Below, piece by piece: positions 44,984 to 51,920 of a stretch of 64,000 nucleotides of DNA (within the stretch, counting starts at the first letter, position 1; each line of letters starts with the position of its first letter). Origin of the DNA: Chelatococcus composti (GTDB taxonomy: Bacteria > Pseudomonadota > Alphaproteobacteria > Rhizobiales > Beijerinckiaceae). The notes under the pieces were generated by a model, which was given only the letters and a program-made list of their open reading frames with translations, was not told the DNA's origin and did no database searches. Where the stretch lies: contig NZ_JACHEH010000004.1 of assembly GCF_014201415.1 (NCBI RefSeq), forward strand, positions 62,001-126,000, given 5' to 3'. A program made the translations under genes and the position numbers.

Positions 44984-46015
44984 CTACTCCGCCGGCACGG
45001 CCGACGGCGGCACGCCGCGCCTTCCCTCCTCCGCTGCCTGGTTCTCCACCTCGGCGACCCACAGGCTGTGGTGCTGGCGCGCCCAGTTGAGGTCCACCTG
45101 GCCGCTGCCCATGGCCCCGAAGGCGCCTTCCATGCCGAGCGTGCCGATGTAGATGTGGCCGAGAATCACGGCGATGAGCAGCACCGCGAGCAGGCCATGT
45201 ATCACCTGGGCCGTCTGCATCTGGGCGATCGTCGTGCCGTAGAAGGGGAACAGCAGGATGTAGCCGCTCGCTGCGATGGCGCCGCCGACGAGGATGACGA
45301 GCCAGAACAGCACCTTCTGGCCGCCATTGAACTTGCCGGCCGGCGGGTGCGTGTTGCCCACGATGCCGCCGCCCTGCATGAACCAGGCGATGTCGACCCG
45401 GCCCGGGATGTTGCGCAGCGCCCAGATGAAGAACATCAGCACAAGCCCCAGGGTGAAGGGGAAGCTGAGGAAGTTGTGGGCGTACTTGGCGGCCATCGAG
45501 AAGCTGGAGAAGGCCTCCGGCCCGATGAGCGGCAGCAGGAGCGACTTGCCGAAGGCGACGTTGAGGCCGGAGAGCGCCAGGATGACAAAGCAGCTCGCCG
45601 TCAGCCAGTGCACGAAACGCTCGAACCACCTGAAGCGCACGATGGTGCGGCCCGACAGTCCTCCCTCGATAGGGATGCGCCCGCGCACGATGTAGAAGGC
45701 AGCGAGCACCGCGAGCGTGCCGAGAATGGCAATGCCGCCGATCCAGGCCAGGGTGCGTTCGTGATAGGCGCGCCACTCCTGCCCCTCAACCTGGATGAGC
45801 GTCGCCGCCTTCTGGTCGGGGATCGACACGCGACCGGTGACCCGGTCGAGCGCCTGCATGAGCTGCTCTTCCTTCACCGCCTCGGTCGTGGGGTTGACCT
45901 GGGCGACGGCGGGGCCGGACGCTGCCGGCAGCATGAGAAGCACCGCCATCAGCATCAGCAGCGCGGCGGCGATGCCGTGGGCAGACCAGCGCCGATCGGT
46001 TCCTGTGCGGGTCAT
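44984..46015 (-). CDS. fdh3C: Formate dehydrogenase gamma subunit (cytochrome b)
   Basis: The 343-residue protein has a signal-like N-terminus (LLMLMAVLLMLPAASGPAVA) and an extra extracytoplasmic stretch of about 60 residues. Four membrane helices of the FdnI/FdoI type follow: FERFVHWLTASCFVILALSG, AKYAHNFLSFPFTLGLVLMF, FWLVILVGGAIAASGYILLF and VIHGLLAVLLIAVILGHIYI. Their His residues are the expected haem b ligands. It passes electrons from the periplasmic FeS subunit to quinone. It is 33 bases downstream of the beta-subunit gene. Confidence 0.92.
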   Translation of the reverse strand: MTRTGTDRRWSAHGIAAALLMLMAVLLMLPAASGPAVAQVNPTTEAVKEEQLMQALDRVTGRVSIPDQKAATLIQVEGQEWRAYHERTLAWIGGIAILGTLAVLAAFYIVRGRIPIEGGLSGRTIVRFRWFERFVHWLTASCFVILALSGLNVAFGKSLLLPLIGPEAFSSFSMAAKYAHNFLSFPFTLGLVLMFFIWALRNIPGRVDIAWFMQGGGIVGNTHPPAGKFNGGQKVLFWLVILVGGAIAASGYILLFPFYGTTIAQMQTAQVIHGLLAVLLIAVILGHIYIGTLGMEGAFGAMGSGQVDLNWARQHHSLWVAEVENQAAEEGRRGVPPSAVPAE

Positions 46016-46048: not shown

Positions 46049-46645
46049 TCAGACGTCGATCGTTTCCTTGTAGGCCGTCTTCCAGCCCCAGGCGCCGGAG
46101 CCGTAGCCGCGCTTGAGCACGCGCTCCTTGTAGATGGCGGCGATGATCTCCCCATCGCCGGCGAGCAGCGACTTGGTCGAGCACATCTCGGCGCAAAGCG
46201 GCAGCTTGCCCTCGGCGATGCGGTTCGCGCCGTATTTCTCATATTCGGCGGCGCTCAGGTCCGGCTCCGGCCCGCCGGCGCAATAGGTGCACTTGTCCAT
46301 CTTGCCGCGCGAGCCGAAGTTGCCGACGCGCGGGTACTGCGGCGCGCCGAAGGGGCAGGCGTAGAAGCAGTAGCCGCAGCCGATGCACAGGTCCTTCGAG
46401 TGGAGCACGATACCGTCGGGCGTGTTGTAGAAGCAGTCCACCGGGCACACTGCCTTGCACGGGGCGTCCGTGCAGTGCATGCACGCCATGGAGATGGACC
46501 GTTCACCCGGCTTGCCGTCGTTGATGGTGACAACGCGCCGGCGGTTGATGCCCCAGGGCACCTCGTTCTCGTTCTTGCAGGCGGTGACGCAGGCGTTGCA
46601 CTCGATGCAACGGTCGGCGTCGCAGAGGAATTTCAAACGGGCCAT
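46049..46645 (-). CDS. fdh3B: Formate dehydrogenase beta subunit (four [4Fe-4S] clusters)
   Basis: The 198-residue ferredoxin-like subunit starts MARLKFLCDADRCIECNACV with GAGGATGAG upstream. It carries Cys groups CIECNACVTAC, CMHCTDAPCKAVCP, CIGCGYCFYACP and CTYC plus later Cys (CAEMC), enough for four clusters. It is about 100 residues shorter than E. coli FdnH and lacks the C-terminal membrane anchor, which fits the FDH3 group of Methylobacterium and rhizobia. It shuttles electrons from the catalytic subunit to the cytochrome b and is carried to the periplasm with it. Confidence 0.94.
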   Translation of the reverse strand: MARLKFLCDADRCIECNACVTACKNENEVPWGINRRRVVTINDGKPGERSISMACMHCTDAPCKAVCPVDCFYNTPDGIVLHSKDLCIGCGYCFYACPFGAPQYPRVGNFGSRGKMDKCTYCAGGPEPDLSAAEYEKYGANRIAEGKLPLCAEMCSTKSLLAGDGEIIAAIYKERVLKRGYGSGAWGWKTAYKETIDV

Positions 46646-46656
46646 CTCATCCTCCC

Positions 46657-49563
46657 TCAGGCCGCCCTGATCTGGCACAGCGTCACCTTGCCCTCGTGCA
46701 TGCCCGTCACCGGGTCATAGCCGTAGGTGGTGATGGTGTTGACGCTCTCGCCGAGAACGATGGGGTCCGTGCCCGGCGGGTAGTTCTTGCGCTGGTCCTC
46801 TCCCATGAACCAGCCGGAGAAGTGGAAGGGCATGAAGGCGACGCCCTTGCCGACGCGCTCTGTGACGAGCGCCTTGACGCGTGCCCTGGAGTTGTTCTCC
46901 GGCCCCGTCACCCACACCCAGCTGCCGTCGGTGATGCCGCGCTCGGCCGCGTCCGCCGGGTTGATCTCGACGAACATGTCCTGCTGCAGCTCGGCGAGCC
47001 ACCTGTTGGAGCGGGTCTCCTCGCCGCCGCCCTCGTATTCGACGAGGCGCCCGGAGGTCAGAATGATCGGAAAGTCCCGGGCGATGCCCTTGTCGACCGC
47101 CGCCTTCTGCACGGTGAAGCCGATGTTGGGCACGCGGAAGCTCCTGAAGTCCTCCCGCGTGGGATATTTCGCTACCAGGTCGGCGCGTGGCGAATAGATG
47201 GGCTCGCGGTGTACCGGTATCGGGTCGGGCAGGTTCCACGCCACGACGCGCGCCTTGCCGTTGCCGTAGGGGATGCAGCCGTGCTCCAGCGCCACGCGCT
47301 GGATGCCGCCGGACAGGTCCGTCGCCCAGGAAACGGCATCGGGATTGTTGCCGCCGATGCGCTCGATCGTGGCGCGCTCCGCCTCCGTGAGATCGGCATC
47401 CCAGCCGAGCTTCTTGAGGATGCCGTAGGTGAACTCCGGATAGCCGTCCTGGATCTCCGAACCGAGCGAATAGGAGCCCTCCGACAGCAGCGTCACGCCG
47501 TTGCGCTCCACACCGAAACGGGCACGGAAGGTGCCGCCGCCGTCCTTCACATGCAGGTTGGTGTTGTAGAGCGTGTGCGTGCCCGGGTGCCGGTATTCCG
47601 GCGTGCCCCAGCACGGCCACGGCAGGCCGTAGTAGTCCCCGCCCACCTCCGGCACGTCCTTGGGCGCACGCAGGGTGACGATGTCGAACTTGTCCTGGTT
47701 CGCCATGTGCGCCTTGAGGCGCTCCGGCGACTGGCCGCAGTAGCCGGTGGACCAGCCGCCGCGGTTGATCTCGCGCAGGATGTCCTCCGGCACGGGCCTG
47801 TCGTTCTCGACCTTGATGTTCTTGAACATCAGGTCGGCAAAGCCAAGCTTCTTCGCCAGACGGTACAGGACCTCGTAATCGTCCTTCGACTCGAAGATGG
47901 GCTTGACGATCTGCTCGCCCCACTGGATCGAGCGGTTGGAGGCCGTGCGCGAGCCCGAAGTCTCGAGCTGCGTGCAGATGGGCAGGAGATAGGTGCCGTT
48001 CTTGCGCTGTGAGATCGCGGCGAAGGTCGTGGGGTGCGGATCCCCGACCACGAGCAGGTCCAGCTTCTCGAGGCCCTTCACCATCTCCGGCATGCGCGGG
48101 ATGGTGTTGCCGCCGTGGCCGAAGACCATCATGGCGCGCAGGTTGTCGCGCTGCTCCACCTGGTCCTTGGGCAGGAGCACGGCATCGAACCACCGTGTCG
48201 AGGGGATGCCGGGCGCCTCCATCATCTTCTTGTCTTCGAAGCGGGAGACCATCCACTCGTAGTCGACGTCCCACACCCGGCACCAGTGCTTCCACGCGCC
48301 CTCGGTGAGGCCGTAGTAGAGCGGCAGTGACGTGACATCGAGGCCGAGGTCGGTCGCGCCCTGCACGTTGCAGTGGCCGCGGAAGATGTTGGCACCGTTG
48401 CCGAAGCCGCCGACATTGCCGGTGGCCAGCAGCAGCGTGCAGTAGGCGCGCACGTTGGCCGTGCCGACCGTGTGCTGCGTGCCGCCCATGCACCAGATGA
48501 AGGTGGACGGCCGCTCCTTGGCAAAGGTCTCGGCCACGCGCCTCAGCTGCTCGCCCGGCACGCCCGTCACGTCCTCGACGGTGGCGGGATCCCACTTCTT
48601 CACCTCGGCCCGGACCTCGTCCATGCCGTAGACGCGCTGGGCGATGAACTCCTTGTCCTCCCAGCCGTTCTCGAAGATGTGCCACAGCATGCCCCAGATC
48701 ACCGCGATGTCGGTGCCGGAGCGGATGCGCACGTACTCGGTGGAATGCGCCGCCGTGCGGGTGAAGCGCGGGTCGAAGACGAAGACGTTGGCGCGGTTGG
48801 TCTCCTTGCCCGTGAGGATGTGCTGCAGCGACACCGGGTGGGCCTCGGCGGCGTTGGAACCCATGAAGACGATGGTCTTCGCGTTGCGGATGTCGTTGTA
48901 GCTGTTGGTCATGGCGCCGTAGCCCCACGTGTTCGCGACGCCCGCGACCGTGGTGGAATGGCAGATGCGCGCCTGGTGATCGACCGAGTTGGTGCCCCAG
49001 AAGGCCGCGAACTTCCGCAGGAGATAGGCGCCTTCGTTGGAATACTTGGCCGAGCCGAGCCAGTAGACGGCGTCAGGCCCAGAGGCTTCACGGATCTCCA
49101 GCAGCTTGTCGCCGATCTCGTTGATGGCGTCGTCCCACGAGATGCGCTGCCAGGCGCCGTCCACCAGCTTCATCGGATACTTGAGGCGGCGGTCGCCGTG
49201 CACCAGCTCGCGGATGGCTGCGCCCTTGGCGCAGTGGGAGCCGCGGTTGATGGGGCTGTCCCAGGCCGGCTCCTGCCCCACCCACACACCGTTCTGCACC
49301 TCGGCAATCACCGTGCAGCCGACGGAGCAGTGGGTGCAGATGTTCTTCTTGCGCTCGATGGGCTGCTGGAAATCGGTGGGGCCGGCCTCGGCGCGGCGCA
49401 CCGTTCCCACCTGGATCGTGCCGACCGCGGCGAGCGCGCCGGCGGTGAAGCCGGCACGCTTCAGGAAGGCGCGCCTGTCGACCAGGGACGCACCCCCGAA
49501 CCCGGCTGCGACAGCCTGCAACCGGCCCCGCGCGGCGGCAGCGGACTTGCGCTTGATGAGCAT
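46657..49563 (-). CDS. fdh3A: Formate dehydrogenase catalytic alpha subunit (Mo/W bis-MGD, Cys ligand)
   Basis: The 968-residue protein has a Tat signal (RR at 30-31 in VDRRAFLKRAGFTAGALAAV), so it is exported folded. C76, C79, C83 and C111 bind the proximal [4Fe-4S] cluster (CTHCSVGC ... HCAKGA). The metal ligand is C201 in ARICHSTTVAG, with the neighbouring catalytic His; E. coli FdnG has selenocysteine here. Residues 820-968 form the molydopterin dinucleotide-binding domain. It oxidises periplasmic formate to CO2. It follows a small Tat-target peptide gene by 12 bases and leads into beta and gamma genes. Confidence 0.96.
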   Translation of the reverse strand: MLIKRKSAAAARGRLQAVAAGFGGASLVDRRAFLKRAGFTAGALAAVGTIQVGTVRRAEAGPTDFQQPIERKKNICTHCSVGCTVIAEVQNGVWVGQEPAWDSPINRGSHCAKGAAIRELVHGDRRLKYPMKLVDGAWQRISWDDAINEIGDKLLEIREASGPDAVYWLGSAKYSNEGAYLLRKFAAFWGTNSVDHQARICHSTTVAGVANTWGYGAMTNSYNDIRNAKTIVFMGSNAAEAHPVSLQHILTGKETNRANVFVFDPRFTRTAAHSTEYVRIRSGTDIAVIWGMLWHIFENGWEDKEFIAQRVYGMDEVRAEVKKWDPATVEDVTGVPGEQLRRVAETFAKERPSTFIWCMGGTQHTVGTANVRAYCTLLLATGNVGGFGNGANIFRGHCNVQGATDLGLDVTSLPLYYGLTEGAWKHWCRVWDVDYEWMVSRFEDKKMMEAPGIPSTRWFDAVLLPKDQVEQRDNLRAMMVFGHGGNTIPRMPEMVKGLEKLDLLVVGDPHPTTFAAISQRKNGTYLLPICTQLETSGSRTASNRSIQWGEQIVKPIFESKDDYEVLYRLAKKLGFADLMFKNIKVENDRPVPEDILREINRGGWSTGYCGQSPERLKAHMANQDKFDIVTLRAPKDVPEVGGDYYGLPWPCWGTPEYRHPGTHTLYNTNLHVKDGGGTFRARFGVERNGVTLLSEGSYSLGSEIQDGYPEFTYGILKKLGWDADLTEAERATIERIGGNNPDAVSWATDLSGGIQRVALEHGCIPYGNGKARVVAWNLPDPIPVHREPIYSPRADLVAKYPTREDFRSFRVPNIGFTVQKAAVDKGIARDFPIILTSGRLVEYEGGGEETRSNRWLAELQQDMFVEINPADAAERGITDGSWVWVTGPENNSRARVKALVTERVGKGVAFMPFHFSGWFMGEDQRKNYPPGTDPIVLGESVNTITTYGYDPVTGMHEGKVTLCQIRAA

Positions 49564-49575
49564 GGCGCCCTCCCC

Positions 49576-49773
49576 TCAGTACCGGTTGACCCGGTAGTAG
49601 GTCTTCACGTGTTCGGTTTCGCGATAGCGCGTCTGGTCGTTCCCGGACGGCTCGGCCATGGCCTCGGCCTTGTCGGCGGCGACCGGCGCGAGCGCCGTCA
49701 TGGCGGCACCCGCGCTGGCGGCGCCGAGGAAGCTGCGTCGATCGAGAACCGTCTTCTTCTTCTCGCCCTGCAT
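49576..49773 (-). CDS. Small Tat-signal peptide protein of the formate dehydrogenase region
   Basis: The 65-residue protein is mostly a Tat signal (LDRRSFLGAASAGAAMTALA) followed by a short polar tail ending HVKTYYRVNRY. It matches, from memory, the small formate-dehydrogenase-region Tat-target family (TIGR02811-like), found just upstream of FDH catalytic subunits. The mature piece would be only some 25 residues. The function is unknown; a periplasmic assembly factor or small extra subunit is possible. It lies between the chaperone and alpha-subunit genes, 23 and 12 bases away. Confidence 0.85.
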   Translation of the reverse strand: MQGEKKKTVLDRRSFLGAASAGAAMTALAPVAADKAEAMAEPSGNDQTRYRETEHVKTYYRVNRY

Positions 49774-49796: not shown

Positions 49797-50579
49797 TCAG
49801 GCGGGCAGCGCGAAGGCTTCCGCCTCGATCTCCATCATGACGCGACCAAGCGTGCCGACGGCCCGGTAGAACCGGCCGGCACGCGATGTTTCCAGATCAG
49901 CGAAGAACCGCGCCGCCCACGGCTCCATGTGGCGGAGGAAGAACTCCCGCTCACCAAGGCCGGCGACGCCGAATTCGCAGCGGATGAGCCCGGCCATTGT
50001 CTCGCAGAGGATGGCGATGTGATCCTCCGGCTCCGCCACGCGCTCGGCGCGCTCGATGCCGAGCCGGGCAAGGTCGCCGCGCAGCACCGCGAGCGGACGC
50101 TCGTGCAGGAAGCCGGTGAGGTAATACGAGGCGTAGGGCAGCAGCTCGCCCCGGCCGAGCCCGATGAAGAGGTCGAAGAACTCCCGGCTCACGGCCTCGG
50201 CATCGGTGCCGGCAGCCGCCTCGGCAAGCGCCAGATGCGCCATGCCGATTTCGCTCGCATCTCCCCTGAGCCGCGAGAGCCTGTCCAGGAGGTCCTGCGC
50301 CGGTGCGCGCCAGAGCAGCGCCGCAAGCAGCGCATATTCCTCGGCGCGCGCCCAGTCGACGGGATCGATGTCGGCGTCGTCGGCCGCATCCTGCGGCGGG
50401 TAGAGGTCCGGACGCAGCACTGTCCGGTCGATGCCCGTCAGCGCCTCCACGGCGAGAACACGGTCGGCCGGCACGCGGCGCCAGCCTGAAACCGTGGGCT
50501 GAGACACCCCGAGCAAGCGGGCCAGCGCACGCACGCCGCCTGCTGCTTCAATGGCCTGCCTGAGCCCTGCCTCCCGCAT
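49797..50579 (-). CDS. HTH-TorD fusion: DNA-binding domain joined to formate dehydrogenase chaperone
   Basis: From the ATG at 50579 the protein is 260 residues. Residues 1-60 form a Cro/YdaS-like helix-turn-helix (AGGVRALARLLGVSQPTVSG W at about 13-33). Residues 75-255 are a TorD/DmsD-type chaperone: REFFDLFIGLGRGELLPYAS YYLTGFLHE (two pieces), PEDHIAILCETMAGLI and EREFFLRHMEPWAARFFADL. TorD proteins hold the Tat-bound catalytic subunit during cofactor insertion. The open frame reaches a GTG at 50642, but GGGGGAGG lies 11 bases before 50579 and a dyad occupies 50613-50627, so I prefer the shorter form. It is first in the enzyme operon. Confidence 0.85.
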   Translation of the reverse strand: MREAGLRQAIEAAGGVRALARLLGVSQPTVSGWRRVPADRVLAVEALTGIDRTVLRPDLYPPQDAADDADIDPVDWARAEEYALLAALLWRAPAQDLLDRLSRLRGDASEIGMAHLALAEAAAGTDAEAVSREFFDLFIGLGRGELLPYASYYLTGFLHERPLAVLRGDLARLGIERAERVAEPEDHIAILCETMAGLIRCEFGVAGLGEREFFLRHMEPWAARFFADLETSRAGRFYRAVGTLGRVMMEIEAEAFALPA

Positions 50580-50612
50580 TACGGCGCACGCCTCCCCCAT
50601 AGCCGAACGGCA

Positions 50613-50627
50613 ATAGGGGAAGCCTAT
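50613..50627. promoter_or_regulatory. Dyad upstream of the HTH-TorD gene
   Basis: ATAGG-GGAAG-CCTAT is a perfect 5-5-5 dyad 34-48 bases upstream of the preferred start of the HTH-TorD gene, at the head of the formate dehydrogenase operon. It is a natural candidate for binding by the HTH domain (autoregulation), which is inference. Confidence 0.45.
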
Positions 50628-50751
50628 CACCCCTTTTTTCACATTGCAACCATTCCAAAGAAGTATCGCGTGCGCTGCGCGTCATGGCTGTAGCGGCGGG
50701 CGTGTCGCCGCGCGGAACGCACAGGTCCGCGAATCCCTCGTCTACGTTGGC

Positions 50752-51417
50752 TCAGACGGGCGTCGCCGAGCCCGAGCGGCGGCGCGGGATGAGGCGGTGG
50801 CCGTCGGACGCGGCCTTCACATCAGCGTGCGCCCCGTCCGCCTCTGCCGTTGTGGCGGGCACCAGCGGCTCCTCGCCGGGCAACCGGACAGCCTTCGGCA
50901 CGTCCGCGTGCCCGGCCGTCACCTCGGAGGCCGGCGGGGCAGCAGGCTCACAGGCTGCGGCCCTGACCGCCCCTCCCGGCTCTTCGTCCGACGGTGGCGG
51001 AACCCCCTCGACCGCGGCGAGCAGGCGGCGGCGCACCGCTTCTCCCGCCTCGAGCGGCCCGTAGCCCGGCATGCCTCCGGGCGTGTTCCAGTCCCAGTCG
51101 TAGTCGGCAAGGCCGACGAAGTCGCGGATGGCAGGGTCGCTCACCCACAGGCGGCGCAGGGCCGCCTGGCGCCAGGACTGCGGCACGTTGCGCTTCAGCC
51201 AGGGCCTCAGGTCCGTCTCGGGCCCGATGCTCTCGATGGGCGGCAGCTCCTCGAGCGGGACGGGCGCCTCCTCCGGCGCCGGCGATGACTGCTCGACGGA
51301 TGCGGCATCCGGTGCGGGAGGCGGTTCCGGCACCTCCGCAGGTGGCAGCGCCTCCCTGCGTCGCGCGGCCTCCTTGCGTCGCGACCAGCGGGTGAGGAAG
51401 CCTTCGTCCGCGCTCAC
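50752..51417 (-). CDS. DUF3306 protein
   Basis: The 221-residue protein starts MSADEGFLTRWSRRKEAARR and has the DUF3306 core: LPPIESIGPETDLRPWLKRN, QAALRRLWVSDPAIRDFVGL and ADYDWDWN. The N-terminal 60 residues and the C-terminal 90 are Pro/Ala/Glu-rich and probably disordered. There is no signal peptide, membrane segment or Cys pair. DUF3306 genes accompany DUF3305 and formate dehydrogenase genes in proteobacteria, so an assembly role is likely but unproven. Its start overlaps the DUF3305 stop by four bases. It is the last gene of the five-gene run. Confidence 0.85.
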   Translation of the reverse strand: MSADEGFLTRWSRRKEAARRREALPPAEVPEPPPAPDAASVEQSSPAPEEAPVPLEELPPIESIGPETDLRPWLKRNVPQSWRQAALRRLWVSDPAIRDFVGLADYDWDWNTPGGMPGYGPLEAGEAVRRRLLAAVEGVPPPSDEEPGGAVRAAACEPAAPPASEVTAGHADVPKAVRLPGEEPLVPATTAEADGAHADVKAASDGHRLIPRRRSGSATPV

Positions 51418-51920
51418 GGCTCCCTCTCCTTGCCATGAGCAGGCCGCAGCGCGAGGGCGTCCGGGTTGGCCCGATCGCGGCGGCGCTTGATGAAAGCGCG
51501 CTCCACATGGTGCTCAGCAACGAAGCGGGCGACAACGCCCGCCACCTCGTCCGGCATCGGCACCGCCTCGACGATGTTGTCGCCCGCCTCCGTGTAGGCC
51601 GCGCCCTCGTTGGGATCGGCCGTCACCACCAGGATGTCGAGCGGCGGGGTGACACCGGTGGCGTGGGCGGCGATCCACAGCTTCGGGGCTCCGCTCTCCA
51701 GATTGTCCCGGTATCCGGCCGTCTCGGTCCGGTAGAGGTCCACGGCATAGGCACCGGCATAGAAGCGCTGCACGCCCCCCTCCTCGACGAGCAGGGTCCA
51801 CGGCGCGGCCTCCGGCACGCCGGCGAGGACGGCGACCGGCAGCCAGACGTGATCCACCCAGCGGCTTTTCAGCGGGCGGCGTTCCACGACCACGCCGACG
51901 CTGAATCTCTCGTGCGCCAT
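51414..51920 (-). CDS. DUF3305 protein
   Basis: The 168-residue protein has the DUF3305 pattern: FSVGVVVERRPLKSRWVDHV WLPVAVL (two pieces), YAGAYAVDLYRTETAGYRDN LESGAPKLWIA and DEVAGVVARFVAEHHVERAF IKRRRDR. It is predicted soluble and cytoplasmic, with no Cys motif. The function is unknown; its constant company with DUF3306 and the FDH genes suggests a step in enzyme maturation. It starts 12 bases after the DUF6352 stop and ends four bases inside the DUF3306 start. Confidence 0.87.
   Translation of the reverse strand: MAHERFSVGVVVERRPLKSRWVDHVWLPVAVLAGVPEAAPWTLLVEEGGVQRFYAGAYAVDLYRTETAGYRDNLESGAPKLWIAAHATGVTPPLDILVVTADPNEGAAYTEAGDNIVEAVPMPDEVAGVVARFVAEHHVERAFIKRRRDRANPDALALRPAHGKEREP

Follow-up and report, generated by a model that had tools for sequence, protein, structure and literature searches.

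A formate dehydrogenase chaperone that carries a Cro-type helix-turn-helix domain, with a putative operator in front of its own gene

Molybdoenzymes are costly, as they need ordered cofactor insertion and export, and whether cells sense this maturation directly is an old question. In the TorC/TorS system of E. coli, an immature enzyme partner reports to operon control through a sensor kinase. BirA and PutA, by comparison, respond to small molecules. In the part of PMC6978683 that concerns them, these two appear as proteins with an activity of their own that repress genes of their own pathway. Among operons with a dedicated maturation chaperone, the main text of Bay et al. (2015; PMC4464133) describes dmsD-fdhGHI operons, 60% of which have DUF3305/DUF3306 genes upstream, and makes no mention of helix-turn-helix, DNA-binding, fusion or Cro. 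Phage Cro operators, in turn, measure 17 bp in lambda and 16 bp in N15/phiKO2, according to the passage on their size in PMC4997575.

Here, we describe a gene whose product may combine features of these systems. It lies in a 64-kb stretch of Chelatococcus composti DNA (in the following, the window), of which a preliminary description had proposed that a chaperone with a DNA-binding domain and a dyad before its operon form a feedback device, setting expression by the maturation state of the enzyme. The protein shares its fold with the maturation chaperones DmsD, TorD, NarJ and YcdY (Z 13.8-19.0), and its gene is linked to a molybdoenzyme operon, as are those of TorD, DmsD and NarJ (fdhA at 74 of 74 loci with room for it). 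The operon logic is that of the dmsD-fdhGHI operons as set out in the main text of PMC4464133; that text, however, mentions no DNA-binding head on DmsD-type chaperones, whereas the fusion has a predicted one.

Domain architecture, gene neighbourhood and spread

The fusion gene (49797..50579, minus strand, like the other genes and protein parts of the window given below) encodes 260 amino acids. Residues 1-60 (50400..50579) form an N-terminal Cro/YdaS helix-turn-helix (HTH) domain, matched by the Pfam families YdaS_toxin (E 5e-15, 55.5 bits, cut-off 30) and P22_Cro (E 2e-7, 31.1-31.2 bits, cut-off 30.2), and residues 72-260 (49800..50366) a TorD/DmsD/NarJ-type chaperone domain, matched by the TorD/NarJ family Nitrate_red_del (E 1.7e-28, 99.8 bits, curated cut-off 22.2). 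As both parts exceed the curated cut-offs, the fusion of an HTH to a TorD-type chaperone that had been read from the window is borne out, and both domains were found in all 31 fusions scanned by Pfam, from a set of 122. The 5' end had been misplaced at 50627, where an ATA codon falls within the dyad; homologues indicate ATG 50579, with which Met is aligned in 74 of 94 homologues and Val or Leu in another 16. We number residues from this ATG; residue 29, discussed below, would be position 36 if counted from ATG 50600.

An AlphaFold model based on a 31-sequence alignment has a mean pLDDT of 89.8, with 91-97 per ten-residue block in the HTH domain. The modelled HTH domain is closest to Xfaso 1 Cro (3bd1; Z 9.6, 60 residues, rmsd 1.6), to which it is also related by sequence profile (E 1.9e-13), while P22 and N15 Cro match more weakly (Z 5.9-6.7). 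For the chaperone part, the model predicts the all-helical TorD/DmsD/NarJ-type fold, with YcdY (Z 19.0) and DmsD (Z 18.2) matching over 173-186 residues and NarJ at Z 13.8-14.8 (13.8 for NarJ with the NarG signal peptide). The linker between the two (residues 61-71, 50367..50399) is variable in the alignment and has a mean pLDDT of 56 in the block of residues 61-70; this low confidence in the model neither supports nor excludes a coupling of the domains. By mean column entropy (0.92 versus 1.11), the HTH domain is conserved at least as well as the chaperone part. Its recognition helix (residues 27-31, QPTVS; 50487..50501), assigned from the model and from the covariation described below, belongs to a region with strongly conserved recognition residues: Q27 and W33 are invariant in 31 sequences, so that a loss of recognition residues across homologues, which the preliminary description had named as evidence against its reading, is not what we find.

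Upstream of the fusion gene lie genes for DUF3305 (51414..51920; PF11749) and DUF3306 (50752..51417; PF11748), the latter separated from ATG 50579 by a 172-bp gap that contains the dyad. Downstream follow a small Tat-signal protein of the ‘formate dehydrogenase region TAT target’ type (49576..49773; TIGR02811, 48.2 bits, just below the cut-off of 48.45), the 968-residue formate dehydrogenase catalytic subunit FdhA (46657..49563; assigned by Pfam, NCBIfam matches below equivalog cut-offs), which is the presumed client of the chaperone, the FDH3 beta subunit (46049..46678; NF038355, E 7e-102, above cut-off) and the gamma subunit, a cytochrome b (44984..46015; TIGR01583, E 4e-48, above cut-off). 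The claim that the fusion gene heads the enzyme operon is thus correct insofar as it comes first among the enzyme genes, but the same-strand DUF3305 and DUF3306 genes precede it; it is the first gene of a block within a longer cluster. We counted neighbouring genes at 80 fusion loci, all taken from named genome records. Genes for DUF3305 and DUF3306 are present at all 75 loci with room upstream, fdhA at all 74 with room downstream and the Tat protein at 59 of these, and the complete gene order of the window recurs at 47 of the 80. In 107 fusions, the HTH start is a median of 125 bp away from the DUF3306 stop. Among HTH-less loci, the median from DUF3306 to the chaperone domain is 200 bp, which says little, as it includes their own N-terminal stretches and refers to the 31 loci with a recognised same-strand DUF3306 gene, 33 others being without one.

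Matches to the protein occur in 136 of the 297 genomes searched in the order (across HTH and chaperone in 26) and in 63 of the 385 searched in the class (across both parts in ten, three of which are also in the order set). Named hosts of fusions, among the best 80 of 147 confirmed relatives, include Chelatococcus, Bradyrhizobium, Afipia, Bosea, Salinarimonas and Phreatobacter. None of the records in the plasmid collection reached 80% coverage of the query. Among 91 partial matches, 15 were listed, 14 of them with the annotation ‘molecular chaperone TorD family protein’ and one in a record without any.

For comparison, we used 64 of the 126 HTH-less chaperone matches (E 1e-28 or better), taking better matches first. 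On a quick tree of these and 108 fusion chaperones, calculated without a mixture model and with several long branches uncertain, the label changes between fused and HTH-less eight times, at least four of them on well-supported branches. After midpoint rooting, eight HTH-less loci (L027-L030, L121, L132, L133, L149) are placed among the fusions, and from this placement they look like HTH losses. In one of these, L132 (genome G171, which also has a fusion), the HTH-less frame appears by eye to be continuous in frame with an upstream DUF3306-like stretch. Conversely, three fusions (L118-L120) are found among HTH-less chaperones; they have a different recognition helix (..QANVWHW or ..QGHVWHW), are without an ATAG dyad and perhaps stem from a separate fusion event. 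They were kept in the tally of operator types as ‘other, none’.

A dyad that follows the recognition helix

The putative operator is a 17-bp dyad, GATAGGCTTCCCCTATT (50612..50628, without strand assignment), recognised by a dyad match and by comparison of homologous loci. Within it, the perfect ATAGG-N5-CCTAT that had been noticed from the sequence is real (50613-50627), and since homologues place the start at ATG 50579, it does lie upstream of the likely start codon. Taken alone, the dyad is weak evidence: the window contains one match with up to one mismatch where 0.23 are expected, and 20 of 100 shuffles contain at least one. It gains its significance from homologous loci, a comparison that the preliminary description had itself proposed. 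We scored 250 bp upstream against CATAGSN5SCTATG (maximum 12), a pattern defined after inspection of upstream regions, and found at least 10 of 12 upstream of 91 of the 102 distinct fusions, compared to 1.8% of 2040 dinucleotide shuffles. An open enumeration of 4-base dyads with no preset motif likewise ranked ATAG-N7-CTAT at the top, with 75 of the 87 dereplicated upstream regions containing it. The controls were shuffles and HTH-less relatives; a ‘reversed’ control for the enumeration was discarded, as it merely mirrors dyads.

Among the HTH-less relatives, the dyad was found at one of 74 loci (64 distinct ones, ten of which are present in duplicate), namely L143, which reaches a score of 10 within a longer stretch of 420 bp. 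The eight HTH-less loci that branch among the fusions score 7 to 9, and within G171, the fusion (L002) has the dyad and the HTH-less copy does not. As a separate observation, a second inverted repeat resembling TGGAATAATTCCA, which we take to be similar to an iron-control box, occurs downstream of the dyad in Bradyrhizobium and Afipia loci (e.g. L003, L094); its form GGAA-N3-TTCC is present in 20 of the 87 dereplicated upstream regions, and the window has a weak match at about 50640-50660.

The dyad comes in two types, and these are related to residue 29 of the recognition helix (codon 50493-50495). Of 122 fusions, 106 carry Ser or Thr at this position, and 104 of these have ATAG-N7-CTAT, one a half-changed site and one both types; 13 carry Ala, 12 with ATAA-N7-TTAT and one with ATAG; the remaining three have another residue and neither operator type. 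In the first set of 108 fusions, nine of ten Ala29 proteins had ATAA-N7-TTAT at the same spacing. No other aligned column is as informative about operator type as residue 29 (mutual information 0.382 of 0.428 bits). The rule also applied to 14 fusions fetched after it had been seen: all 11 with Ser/Thr have ATAG, and all three with Ala have ATAA. These comprise all 12 new fusion genomes of one search and two of another, whose other three were loci already in the set, and they are partly non-independent, as the Bosea-like Ala cases and several Bradyrhizobium rows are similar to earlier ones.

Lambda Cro and lambda repressor use the helix position equivalent to residue 29 to read base pair five of their half-sites. 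The invariant Gln27 would presumably read A2. A study by Hall, Lefevre and Cordes from 2005 reportedly had the correlation of Cro recognition helices with half-sites as its subject. When relatedness is ignored, the association between residue 29 and operator has a raw Fisher p of 1.7e-15. A sign test based on a similarly quick tree has two independent contrasts on well-supported branches (four on all) and gives p 0.5, the operator changing the same way in 1.9 of 2 contrasts on average and never the opposite way; this test is without power because independent switches are few (about three). The one exception among the Ala29 fusions, L033 of Chelatococcus albus (G679), has an ATAG operator at its own fusion gene, and is perhaps an intermediate state of the specificity switch. 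Over the 122 fusions, then, a predicted operator of Cro size tracks the recognition helix, at low phylogenetic power, and has apparently changed in step with the HTH domain. Judging by this covariation, we have little doubt that the HTH domain would bind DNA at the dyad.

Possible modes of control and further sites

In the window, a -10-like TAGGCT (50621..50626, minus strand) lies inside the dyad and forms a consensus-matching pair with a -35-like TTGCAA (50644..50649, minus strand), with a joint score of 9.5. We looked for such sigma-70-like pairs (score at least 9) in 42 representatives hand-picked from the 108 fusions, a chance second site (L109) being set aside by hand. A pair was found at 23 loci and none at this threshold at the other 19. 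The dyad lies inside the pair, with its centre between -58 and -4, at 21 of the 42 loci, versus 5.6% of 1260 flank-shuffled controls; at the other two of the 23, the predicted start is upstream of the dyad (centre at +32 and +34). Of the 21 placed dyads, three are centred at -6, all from Chelatococcus and including the window, and six at -14 to -17. Since the dyad thus covers the -10 region or the spacer in nine of 21, the site position makes repression the likely outcome of binding. Binding that activates the operon would agree with the eight dyads centred at -41 to -43 and the three at -48 to -53, at which activation is possible from the position of the site (one more lies at -35), but the nine that overlie the -10 region or spacer, among them the window's own, speak against it, and we consider it unlikely.

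The genome of the window contains three exact ATAGG-N5-CCTAT sites. One (C1:30975-30989; L111, L216) has a lone ModE-like HTH gene on one side and, on the other, a Mo/W ABC transporter, whose nearest matches are TupB (160 bits) and TupA (241 bits), under their cut-offs of 320 and 400, respectively. A dyad is found at the homologous place in three other Chelatococcus genomes, four in all; it is ATAG-type in G677 and G678, and in G679, the genome of the Ala29 exception, it reads ATAATAACAACTTAT, with both arms Ala-type. The latter fits the fusion as the predicted binder, with the reservation that the promoter of G679's own fusion gene is still ATAG-type. A second palindrome beside the site, CGATATG..CATATCG, suggests that the transporter may be under ModE-like control, too. 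The transporter dyad hints at a small Mo/W regulon, and from these sites we give co-regulation of the tungstate-type transporter by the fusion in Chelatococcus slightly less than an even chance. The third site (L113) is located by a LysR gene. A genome-wide regulon defined by the pattern was rejected: ten fusion genomes contain 14 exact CATAGSN5SCTATG sites, two of them fusion operators, versus 11 in a backwards control, so most extra genomic sites look like chance.

That last LysR gene brings up another conceivable binder, as we take ATAG-N7-CTAT to be formally a LysR-type T-N11-A box. Boxes of this form also precede fdsG-like genes in G171, G294, G207, G070, G106, G691 and G756, and in the Bosea-like G691 and G756, box pairs lie 107 and 232 bp before these genes, with a LysR-type gene adjoining the fds genes by eye. 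In G171, an exact dyad precedes an FdsG gene identified by NCBIfam above cut-off. FdsG-like matches (E 1e-20), however, occur in just eight of 35 fusion genomes, and the neighbouring site scores 12 of 12 in G171 only, 11 in G070 and G106, and lower in the other five. Moreover, in G691 and G756, whose fusions have Ala29, the fds boxes are ATAG-type whereas the fusion operators are ATAA-type, even if the fds region of G756 (L272) also has one ATAA-type dyad. The boxes near FdsG-like genes (L272, L281, L232, L235-L238) are probably LysR-type sites, and the fds genes, which encode an NAD-formate dehydrogenase, are a doubtful target of the fusion. Were a LysR-type regulator the binder of the fusion operator itself, the dyad should occur independently of the HTH domain, but it was found at one of 64 distinct HTH-less relatives, and operator type follows an HTH residue; we regard this explanation as very improbable. 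Even less credible is an HTH domain that is a vestige or a mere dimerisation module without a DNA target. It counts in favour of this reading that prophages, intact or decayed, often carry YdaS-like domains, but the strong conservation of the recognition residues, with Q27 and W33 invariant, and the operator that tracks residue 29 speak against it.

We propose that the fusion protein would serve formate dehydrogenase as a system-specific chaperone and would bind DNA through its Cro-type head. As a dimer, it would occupy the 17-bp dyad within its operon's promoter and control, most likely repress, the genes for the chaperone, the Tat protein and the enzyme. Autoregulatory control of its own operon, with or without client sensing, appears very probable because the predicted site changed in step with the HTH domain, and repression rather than activation is probable from the site position. 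As to client sensing, the slightly favoured direction is that the free chaperone would repress and the client-bound chaperone would let go of the DNA. Of the feedback device envisaged in the preliminary description, the DNA-binding domain, the dyad in the own promoter, its conservation and its covariation with the HTH domain hold up; for the coupling of DNA binding to occupancy by unfinished FdhA, which is suggested by the fusion as such, we see the odds as even. The main competitor is plain, concentration-based autoregulation, in which the HTH domain binds the dyad and the chaperone part is a passenger that does not sense maturation. The footprint and covariation evidence fits it equally well, and so does a variable, low-confidence linker; on the other hand, large and diverse clades have kept the HTH domain fused to the chaperone instead of encoding it on its own, which is suggestive only. 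We consider plain autoregulation a serious possibility, if somewhat less than an even one. The fullest form of our proposal, in which FdhA occupancy would set DNA binding by the Cro head and thereby tune both the enzyme operon and the Chelatococcus Mo/W transporter, so that cofactor and enzyme supply are matched, is tentative and on balance rather unlikely.

Relation to known regulators

That the chaperone regulates its own operon in a sequence-specific manner is an inference with good support, and maturation sensing is a plausible, natural hypothesis prompted by the fusion. If true, a chaperone-regulator with a 17-bp operator and an apparent switch of one residue and one base pair would make maturation sensing directly testable and would allow such operators to be located computationally across many Hyphomicrobiales genomes. 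In the open-licence literature, which our search covered, we found no description of an HTH-TorD fusion.

In HTH fold and dyad size, the fusion matches phage Cro/YdaS repressors such as those of Xfaso 1, P22 and N15, as far as the operator sizes given in PMC4997575 go; unlike phage Cro, it belongs to a metabolic operon and has its HTH joined to a chaperone for an enzyme. With BirA and PutA, as portrayed in that part of PMC6978683, it would share the repression of its own pathway. Their signal is a small molecule, whereas the candidate signal of the fusion is an unfinished protein client. In this respect, it would resemble TorC/TorS, where feedback likewise comes from an immature partner, but where a sensor kinase takes the place that we propose for a chaperone-repressor fusion.
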